Shown in pieces: positions 60,643-64,000 of a stretch of DNA of 64,000 nt; position 1 is the first letter of the stretch, and each line of letters begins with the position of its first letter. A model generated the notes under the pieces. That model had not been told where the DNA came from, did no database searches, and saw only the letters and a program-made list of their open reading frames with translations. Source of the stretch: Sistotremastrum niveocremeum HHB9708 (Eukaryota > Basidiomycota > Agaricomycetes > Sistotremastrales > Sistotremastraceae); assembly GCA_001630475.1 (NCBI GenBank), contig KV419404.1, forward strand, positions 578,351 through 642,350. Reading direction: 5' to 3'. The position numbers were made by a program, and so were the translations under genes.

Positions 60643-60940
60643 ATGCCTGCACACCCGAAAACAAAACCTGTGCGTATTTTACAATTGAATACTAACCGAT
60701 CAACAGATATCTGCCATGCACTGCTGAATACAGCAGTCAATGACTTTGACATACTAATCATCCAGGAACCCTGGTGGGGAACCATCGGTGTAGGGCCCAT
60801 CGACGTAGACAAGGTTCAAGGCCCAACCTCCCATCCGGCATGGCAACCGATTCTGCCCATACAGCCTGTCCCCGACGGATGGGCACCAAGAGTATTGACA
60901 TACGTCAAAAAACGCGGTGACTTCACGGTCACATTACGAT

Positions 60941-61038
60941 CTTCAGAAAAAATTAGACCTACTAATTGTACTTTTGAGTACTCCTGAGTACTCCTGAGCG
61001 CTCAAAAGTACAATTAGTAGGTCTAATTTTTTCTGAAG
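60941..61038. mobile_element. 98-bp palindromic insertion, copy 1
   Basis: Two perfect 38-base arms (outer end CTTCAGAAAAAATTAGACCT) flank a 22-base loop with TGAGTACTCC repeated. It sits in the LINE endonuclease and is flanked by AT/AT; because the end is palindromic, a GATC duplication reads equally well. Removing it restores the frame TLR-SDLAKS. It has no coding capacity. Confidence 0.8.
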
Positions 61039-62308
61039 ATCAGACTTGGCTAAAAGTTTGGATCTACAGATAATAGAGATACATCAGAAACCCCATCCAC
61101 CGGTGATGGTGGTGAATATGTACAACCAGTCGACACATTCCACAAACAATACGAAGGCAGCGGAGACACTCATCAGGCTGACATTACCCGTTGATCAACC
61201 GGTGATGGTGACTGGAGACATGAACCTACACCACACAGATTGGGAGGATATGGAGACTGCACCGAATCAGGAAGCAGAATCCTTCGTTGCTTGGACTGAG
61301 GAGGCCGGTTTAACCCTGATGAATGAGAGAGACAATCACACGTATCATTCACATAGTGGACAATACATATCTACGATTGATCTCACTTATGTCAATGAGC
61401 GAGCCAGAAACCGAAACACAGTGATGGAATGGCAGGTTAATCCAAGATGGCGATGTGCGTCAGACCACATGGCCATCACATGGAAAATAAACTGCCGAAG
61501 GACAACAGTCGAAGGCGTCGGCGAAAGTGCATGGAACTTCAAAGATTCTGACGGAATCGAGTGGAGAGCGAGTCTGCGAGGAGAACTAGACAAGCAGGAG
61601 GAGGCTTTTGTCGTGCTTAAAGAAACTCGGGAAACCGATGCTATTGAGCGGGCGGCAAAAGCGTTCGACCAAGCTTTACGAACGGCAACGGAAGACACAA
61701 TTCCCAAACGCCAGTTCAGTCCCAAAGCCCGAGCGTGGTGGAATCCAGATGTCAGTGATGCACACACGAGAATGGTGGAACAAATCAATCAGGCCTTCCG
61801 ATGGCGGAAAAATTTTGGAGAACACAACGAGATACTCGACGAGATCGTAAAAAGATCCAAGAATAGATTTCGGAGGTTGGTCAAGAAAGCGAAGAGGCTT
61901 TTCTACGATGAAACGACTGAAAATGCTGTCACCGATGATATATGGAAGATGAGGAAGTGGGGAATCGGGGAGAGGACATACCAGTCACCACCGCTTCATA
62001 TGCCAAACGGGGGAATGGCAATATCGCATGCTGAGAAATGCGATACACTCAGGGAAGTCCTTTTCAAACCACCACCAGAATTACCAAACGCTGAAAATGC
62101 GGATCTTGTCAATCCGGTTGATGAGGAAATTGTGTGTCCCGAGGTCACACGAGACGAGATCCGCTTTGCTCTTTTCGCACAGGCACCCAAGAAATCACCT
62201 GGACCAAACCAAATCCCATTCCGAGCCCTACGATGGGCATGGGAGATTGCAGAAACCGAAATAGTGAACATCCTAACCGCTTGCTGCAATGTCGGATATC
62301 ACCCAAAG

Positions 62309-62590
62309 TAAGGCTTCCAACGAATATAGCCCGTTTAAGGATATCCGCAAGTATACTTGCCAAGGGTACCTGCCTAATACACCGTAGGCAGGTATGAGAT
62401 TAGCGGCTGGACATTTAGGCAGGTACCTGCCTACTATTTTTACTAGTAAATAGGGGTTATTTAGGCAAGTATAGGCAAGTAAGTACCTGTACTTGCCAAG
62501 TACAAGTATGGGATTTTGGCTGAAAAAAACAGGCAGGTACCTGCATGCAGGTACCCAGGTAAGGCAAGTATATATTCATTGGAGGCCTTA
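62309..62590. mobile_element. 282-bp hAT-like MITE in the LINE
   Basis: The ends are imperfect inverted repeats: left TAAGGCTTCCAACGAATATA; right, reversed, TAAGGCCTCCAATGAATATA. It is flanked by a perfect 8-bp duplication ACCCAAAG (62301-62308 and 62591-62598), typical of hAT elements. The interior is full of GGTACCTGC palindromes and CAAGTA/TACTTG repeats. It inserted between the endonuclease and the reverse transcriptase; the LINE frame reads through YHPK to IWREAV when it is removed. No transposase inside. Its reverse complement matches the element at the right edge. Confidence 0.85.
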
Positions 62591-63067
62591 ACCCAAAGAT
62601 ATGGAGGGAAGCTGTCGCAGTCGCGCTACAGAAACCTCTGAAACCGGATTACTCAATGCCAAGGGCATATCGCTTGATCCAACTCCTAGACTGTCTAGGA
62701 AAAACACTTGAGAAAATACAAGCCAGGCGGGTCACCTTCCTTGTCGCGCGGCATGGCCTAGTCCCAAGTACGCAATTCGGAGCTCGACCAAGCTCATCAA
62801 CTGTAGATGCCATGCTAACACTCGTAAATGACATCGAGGAAGCGAGAAGCCACGGATGGGTAACGTCGGCACTCACATTCGATATCACCGGCTTCTTCGA
62901 CAACGTTAACCACAACAGGCTACTGGTGATCATGCGAGAAAGACGATTTCCGCTAGCGATCATCAACTGGACATCCACTTTCCTCAGTGATAGGAGAGCT
63001 TCGATATGCTTGGATGGCGTCCGAGACGAGACAAAAGCGGTCCAGAACGGCATACCCCAGGGTTCCC

Positions 63068-63165
63068 CTTCTGAAAAAATTAGACCTACTAATTGTACTT
63101 TTGAGTACTTTTTAGTACTCCAGAGCGCTCAAAAGTACAATTAGTAGGTCTAATTTTTTCAGAAG
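63068..63165. mobile_element. 98-bp palindromic insertion, copy 2
   Basis: Same family and exact length as the copy at 60941: perfect 38-base arms (outer end CTTCTGAAAAAATTAGACCT) and a 22-base loop. It splits the reverse transcriptase between GIPQGSP and ISPIL. Flanking C runs fit a 2-bp duplication. Compared with copy 1 its arms differ at the fifth base (T for A) on both sides at once, so both arms stay perfectly matched. Confidence 0.8.
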
Positions 63166-63465
63166 CCCTATCTCACCGATTCTGTCAGCAATCTACTCAG
63201 CCAGTCTGTTGGAAGAAATACAAAACAACGCTAACCGGGAACAAAGCGAAAATCACTCAGACAGATCAAGATCGTCAGGGGGACTATACGTTGACGACGG
63301 GATACTGAAAGTTGCGTCGACATCGCTCCATCAGAACACGGAGATCATACAACAAATCTACAACAACATCGTTGAACCGTGGTTAGCGAAAGCCGGATTA
63401 TCAGCAGATAAGGGGAAGTTCGGATATATCCACTTCTATGAAGGTGGATTTCCACAAAAAATCAA

Positions 63466-63729: not shown

Positions 63730-64000
63730 TAAGGCCTCCAACGAGTATGTACCTGTGGTACTCAGGTACCTGCGTGCAGGTACCTGCCTGTTTTTTTGGG
63801 CCAAAATCCCATACCCGTACTTGCCAAGTACAGGTACCCATGCAGGTATACCTGCCAAAACTGTCTTGTTTTGTGGTTAAATGGTGAAATGAGAACACTT
63901 TGTTAGAGGCAGGTACCTGCCAAAATGGTCAAGGGCCAAACTCATACCCACGCACGCTAATTTTGGCAGGTACCTGCGCAGGTATACCTGCGGGTACCCT
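63730..64000 (+). mobile_element. Second hAT-like MITE or larger relative, cut by the window end
   Basis: Begins TAAGGCCTCCAACGAGTATG, matching the end of the 62309 element. For about 110 bases it follows the reverse complement of that element (CAGGTACCTGCxTGCAGG, CCTGTTTTTTT, CCAAAATCCCATAC, GTACTTGCCAAGTACAGG). It is therefore in the opposite orientation. Further GGCAGGTACCTGCC palindromes follow. The right end lies outside the window, so size and coding content are unknown. Confidence 0.7.

Follow-up and report, generated by a model that had tools for sequence, protein, structure and literature searches.

The locus raises the question of what kind of element two near-identical palindromes in a single LINE represent, and how the arms of each can remain perfectly matched when the two copies differ from one another. 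Within the window, the 64,000-nucleotide stretch of DNA analyzed here, the first-pass annotation had described two 98-bp palindromes, each with 38-base arms and a 22-base loop, in which the fifth base differs between the copies (A vs. T) with the matching change in both arms of each, and had proposed that the element moves or is repaired through a hairpin. The description of the two copies proved accurate (Table 1). They are 94% identical, at 98 bp apiece, and their loops, said to differ by several bases, do so at 4 positions (counted by hand). In copy 1, the arm pairing extends 3 bp beyond the element into its flanks. Folded as single-stranded DNA, copies 1 and 2 have energies of -39.6 and -39.0 kcal/mol, respectively (z = -15.4 and -14.5), and for each copy none of 200 shuffles matched this stability, indicating that the hairpins are not due to chance.

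The same annotation had both copies hitting one LINE, and the endonuclease and reverse transcriptase (RVT_1) frames recognized around them agree with this. We removed each element together with n duplicated bases (n = 0-4) and checked 110 codons past the junction for stop codons. The LINE frame was stop-free over these 110 codons at n = 2 only, at both insertion sites; the flanks of copy 2 by themselves also permit a 3-bp duplication, but the LINE frame permits 2 only. Since n = 2 alone restores the frame, both window copies are insertions with 2-bp duplications (AT and CC, respectively). The LINE also carries another insertion, its third, identified by eye; this is 282 bp long (window 62309-62590), has the ends TAAGGCTTCC..GGAGGCCTTA and is flanked by the 8-bp repeat ACCCAAAG at 62301-62308 and 62591-62598; we presume it to be hAT-like from the length of this duplication. 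A related piece with a similar end (AAGGCCTCCAACGAGTA) lies at window 63730-64000, inverted relative to 62483-62590 and 85% complementary to it over 108 nt; it carries many GCAGGTACCTGC palindromes and reaches the end of the window. A DUF6535 match falls just under the Pfam cut-off; together with the many Plavaka matches it may hint at an Agaricomycete.

Table 1. Palindromic elements, their target duplications and the interrupted LINE in the window.
Feature	Position	Strand	Remarks
Family-A MITE copy 1	60941..61038	.	arms 60941-60978 and 61001-61038, loop 60979-61000; fifth base A in both arms
Copy 1 left target duplication, AT	60939..60940	.	basis: sequence and LINE frame
Copy 1 right target duplication, AT	61039..61040	.	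basis: sequence and LINE frame
Family-A MITE copy 2	63068..63165	.	arms 63068-63105 and 63128-63165, loop 63106-63127; fifth base T in both arms
Copy 2 left target duplication, CC	63066..63067	.	basis: sequence and LINE frame
Copy 2 right target duplication, CC	63166..63167	.	basis: sequence and LINE frame
LINE endonuclease part, target of copy 1	61037..62311	+	open frame with PF14529, PF03372
LINE reverse-transcriptase part, target of copy 2	62563..63144	+	open frame with PF00078 (RVT_1)

The whole genome was then searched with the arm as a pattern (up to 3 mismatches), with the reversed pattern as a control, and all listed places were collected. The arm gave 51 forward and 49 reverse listed matches and the reversed control none genome-wide; in IMG/VR, there were no exact matches to the arm pattern. 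Among the matches listed we found 45 full-length copies of the element, hereafter family A, all of them 98 bp (full-length copies were filtered at set lengths between 78 and 129 bp; nested or truncated A pieces, e.g. L020 at 2020, L011 and L054, were left out of the 45). Grouping by flanks reduced these to 38 independent insertions, with seven copies representing a single insertion within a contig-end block that is repeated, and two more representing another duplicated site. Family A is mobile, as had been supposed from the two window copies. Thirteen copies, including window copy 2, are letter-identical when strand is ignored. The insertion shared by seven contig ends (L020 at 7674, L024, L036, L045, L049, L053 and L055) lies 2,041 bp from the end in six contigs and 1,664 bp in C64; this block is duplicated and subtelomere-like.

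Family A has relatives. Sister families with the same termini are B (88-98 bp), C (78-88 bp) and D (128-129 bp), the counts of which, given below, are minimum values ("at least") because they cover part of the places among the matches listed. The clear inverted repeat of family D is limited to about its outer 16-19 bp, and two further families, E and F, have CATCAG-like ends. The interior of families A to C is made up of 10-bp units centered on GTAC or GCGC, and the lengths of 78, 88 and 98 bp are consistent with gain or loss of such units. The units in the middle of these elements (e.g. window 60970-61010) are close to one helical turn in length, and could possibly form a protein-binding array. 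Further palindromes with CATCAG ends (E/F) and similar 10-bp interiors were seen in L028 at 1742, L029 at 2858, L038 at 965 and the CATCAGRAAAAATWAG places. Some elements are nested: a D element in L078 holds a GTTGCC-rich repeat, the A element in L020 at 2020 holds a GTACCCG-rich repeat, and in L038 at 2363 a C element sits in the end of an A-type palindrome.

An exact 2-bp target duplication flanks 72 of the 88 independent A to D insertions (A 32/38, B 8/14, C 9/9, D 23/27), and 2 more have an exact 3-bp duplication only. When the pairing of flanks was shuffled, the count averaged 6.9 of 88 and never exceeded 15 in 2,000 trials, and at offsets of 1-6 bases only 2-10 of 88 had matching dinucleotides. 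The E/F insertions, not included in the 88, showed none (0/3); L029, an F copy, is flanked by the 3-bp duplication AAG. It should be noted that two copies did not pass the length or end filter, namely L062, which is masked at its left end, and L070, a C copy of 89 bp that has an additional base and, by eye, TT/TT flanks. L068, also masked at its left end, was retained in the 88 and scored as lacking a duplication. All 16 dinucleotides occur among the 72 duplications, TA being the most common (13/72). The variability of the duplicated dinucleotide leaves no constant splice donor, and on this reasoning alone an introner, i.e. an intron-making insertion, was considered unlikely.

Empty sites gave the same duplication length. 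We queried the collected genome stretches with 95 joined flanks and recovered 8 matches spanning the junction. Five were clean, each with a 2-bp difference between the filled and empty site (family A in L014, family C in L026 and L037, family D in L092 and L096), so that the duplication length could be defined from empty sites as the first-pass annotation had envisaged. The other three were the D copy in L014 and the match in L025 (misaligned or rearranged), and L038, nested in another palindrome.

The first-pass annotation had also considered that its reading would be contradicted by a longer parent element that has these ends and codes for a transposase, and an element of this sort exists. 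The Pfam Plavaka family (PF18759) is matched 38 times in this genome, compared with zero in 14 control genomes, and two of the matches (C8:711053-712050) lie within a 6,515-bp element at C8:707362-713876 that has TA on each side. Its 15-bp perfect inverted ends (CTTCAGAAAAAATTA) are identical to the termini of A (A-type), B and D, with CTTCAGAAAAAATTAG at C8:707362 and the inverted end at C8:713876, and PF18759 is found on two of its open frames (E = 1.3e-17 and 9.9e-73). What it has in common with family A is the terminal 15 bp, not the full 38-bp arm. A second long copy (C40:86346-111380) has ends 93-95% alike to those of the C8 element, spans 25 kb and has no matching target duplication. 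The motif ATAGC/GCTAT is crowded at the extremities of the C8 element, with 16 occurrences in the outer 300 bp per side vs. 4 in the remaining 5.9 kb (hand count), resembling the subterminal repeats known for CACTA elements. Family D is built largely of the same motif, making it plausible that D is a direct derivative. One family-A copy is located inside the C8 element (L016 at 1966; C8:707965-708062) and another just outside (C8:713961).

No Plavaka element with the inner arm sequence of family A was found: no listed one-armed match to the arm flanks any of the Plavaka hits in the genome. Likewise, GTAC-type repeats are not crowded near the Plavaka transposases in L099-L110, within stretches that reach 1,500 bases past the match and beyond which the element ends may lie. 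Families A to C have the terminal bases and the duplication length of the C8 element but a different interior; we infer that the C8-type transposase, or a relative of the same, mobilizes family A.

Two other sources of transposase have to be weighed. The hairpins might be MITEs belonging to a superfamily with TA specificity (Tc1/mariner-like, PHISTA or ESTA), as the prevalence of TA among the duplications would suggest; the presence of all 16 dinucleotides contradicts this, and the common ends belong to a Plavaka element, leaving this reading with next to no credibility. The hairpins could also stem from another DNA transposon lineage that resembles Plavaka at the terminal 15 bp only, the true partner of A having been lost or being unsampled. 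This would account for the lack of a direct parent of A among the elements found and for the absence of its 10-bp GTAC-centered units around the Plavaka transposases of L099-L110. We nonetheless think it improbable, because 15 identical terminal bases and an equal duplication length occur on an element that encloses a Plavaka transposase, and because family D bridges the two groups, sharing its termini with both hairpins and Plavaka and its ATAGC repeats with Plavaka.

How, then, do the arms stay alike? Arm differences had been expected always to come in pairs, and unmatched changes in other copies to count against the hairpin reading. Across the 38 A insertions, 27 have perfect 38-bp arms and 11 have unmatched arms. 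Matched changes are real at positions 5 (TT 21, AA 13, AT 3, GT 1), 24 (AA 31, TT 7) and 27 (TT 35, CC 2, CT 1), and between families A, B and C, where several arm positions differ in both arms, but they are not a general rule: the remaining 11 variable arm positions of family A show one-sided changes only. All four matched combinations of position 5 and loop class were found (each of the two most frequent CGCTC loops occurs with TT as well as with AA), showing that there was either more than one change of the matched state or recombination between elements.

Several unmatched states recur at independent sites. The same two unmatched positions are found in L013 and in the subtelomeric insertion, the flanks of which differ; in family B, the pair CC/TG occurs in four insertions and CA/TG together with position 35 in two; in family C, TGA/CAG occurs in three. 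These recurrences indicate that mismatches pass through transposition. L025 and L033 have a one-sided change at position 37 in common, on the same arm with respect to the loop; this could be either a fifth recurrent mismatch or a repeat mutation. Changes private to one insertion are mostly one-sided (L015, L025, L034, L037, L041, L044, L050), the sole two-sided state confined to a single insertion being that of L046, which has A/A at position 5 with a loop otherwise paired with T/T. The orientation of the loop relative to the A5 arm is opposite in L013 and L029, a weak hint of loop inversion. The simplest cause of the paired changes would be occasional copying from arm to arm, by template switching or gene conversion. 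Template switching homogenizes inverted-repeat arms and inverts spacers in yeast (PMC8604942), and has been proposed to maintain hairpins (PMC8794818).

Three other accounts of arm likeness bear on this point. If the element moved as a self-folded single-stranded hairpin, with its arms rewritten from each other at every move, the 27 insertions with perfect arms, the paired changes at positions 5, 24 and 27 and the very stable self-folding would all be expected. Identical unmatched pairs at independent sites in at least four lineages (L013/subtelomeric, B twice, and C) contradict hairpin-templated movement as the rule; moreover, ordinary DNA transposition is what the clean 2-bp duplications suggest, as does the existence of an element that codes for a transposase and has these ends, and we regard hairpin movement as very unlikely. 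Of the original proposal, the movement part is disfavored, and the repair part survives in a weaker form, as occasional homogenization of the arms. A better contender, albeit still a somewhat doubtful one, is that point mutation and selection on the hairpin, as an RNA or as a transposase substrate, keep the arms alike without any copying; this concerns arm matching only and does not conflict with the elements being MITEs. In its favor, nearly all changes confined to a single insertion affect one arm only, as would be expected if copies drifted freely once in place, and intermediates exist, such as the C/T of L044 at position 27. On the other hand, unmatched elements have multiplied too, so symmetry is not strictly required, and the four matched combinations of position 5 and loop would need repeated double changes or recombination. 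Lastly, equalization of the arms could be coupled to mobilization, with a Plavaka/CMC-type reaction, or repair at the excised palindrome, sometimes rewriting one arm. The CMC clade includes Transib and RAG1, both of which make hairpin ends. Paired changes would then arise mainly in moving elements, which would fit the one-sided changes of resident copies and the two-sided changes between lineages; we give this coupling little weight.

Taken together, the palindromes are very probably MITEs moved by a Plavaka-type transposase with a 2-bp duplication, and subject to rare copying from arm to arm. Family A would be a short non-autonomous cut-and-paste DNA transposon in which the inverted repeats take up almost the entire length. 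Encoded elsewhere in the genome, a transposase of the Plavaka type (CACTA/EnSpm-like, CMCT clade) would recognize the termini (CTTCWGAAAAAATTA), excise the element and reinsert it at nearly any dinucleotide, creating a duplication of 2 bp and now and then of 3 bp. Transposition would copy the element unchanged, mismatches included. In resident copies the arms would mutate independently, and arm-to-arm copying, favored by the self-complementarity of the element, would be rare; now and then it would strike a copy that later seeds new insertions, giving rise to the paired changes. An apparently unexplained fungal palindrome is hereby classified and given a probable source of transposase, and short hairpin families are added to the little-described Plavaka group. 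The 38 family-A insertions, with matched, mismatched and mixed arms, also constitute a natural data set on the likeness of inverted-repeat arms in a mobile element.

MITEs such as mimp, Stowaway and Tourist are short, non-coding, multicopy elements of uniform length, with inverted ends and a target duplication of fixed length. Family A resembles MITEs in each of these respects, and its ends, although only the termini, are common to a transposase-coding element, that of C8. It differs from MITEs in general in that its arms account for roughly three quarters of its length, that matched arm changes separate its subfamilies, and that its 2-bp duplication lacks TA specificity. Foldback transposons such as Tetris reportedly have long inverted repeats able to fold back; compared to these, family A is much shorter, with Plavaka-like ends and a 2-bp duplication.

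According to PMC12730594, fungal PlavakaA elements have 2-bp duplications and TGT..ACA termini, and PlavakaB elements 2-3-bp duplications and CATCA..TGATG termini. The hairpin families resemble Plavaka, and PlavakaB in particular, in their 2-bp and rarely 3-bp duplications, which are of the length given in PMC12730594, and palindromes F and some B end in CATCAG..CTGATG, fitting the PlavakaB ends described there (family F and three B copies, one of the latter masked at its left end). The long element found here likewise combines the termini of the hairpins with a PF18759 transposase. The hairpins differ in being non-coding and nearly all inverted repeat and, at 98 bp and with no coding capacity, family A is not itself a Plavaka element. 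Families A to D end in CTTCW..WGAAG, thus carrying neither the PlavakaA nor the PlavakaB termini, which counts against a Plavaka partner. Also unfavorable to this reading are the second long copy, with its 25-kb span and unmatched flanks, the modest record of exact 2-bp duplications in B (8/14) and E/F (0/3), and the three of eight empty-site matches that were not clean. We found no description of a Plavaka MITE in the open-access journal papers searched. In a passage of PMC7473861, Plavaka and MITE appear as separate rows of a repeat table, and in passages of PMC9674265, Plavaka is mentioned once and the non-autonomous families described are hAT and mariner.

As for the arms, the template-switch homogenization outlined in PMC8604942 and PMC8794818 similarly produces changes matched in both arms and is able to flip the spacer; there it is known for yeast coding repeats and RNA genes, whereas in the present case its substrate would be a mobile family, and transposition would spread its products. 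In sum, family A is a new family within an established type of element, the MITEs, and has Plavaka-type ends that match neither of the terminal signatures published for PlavakaA and PlavakaB.
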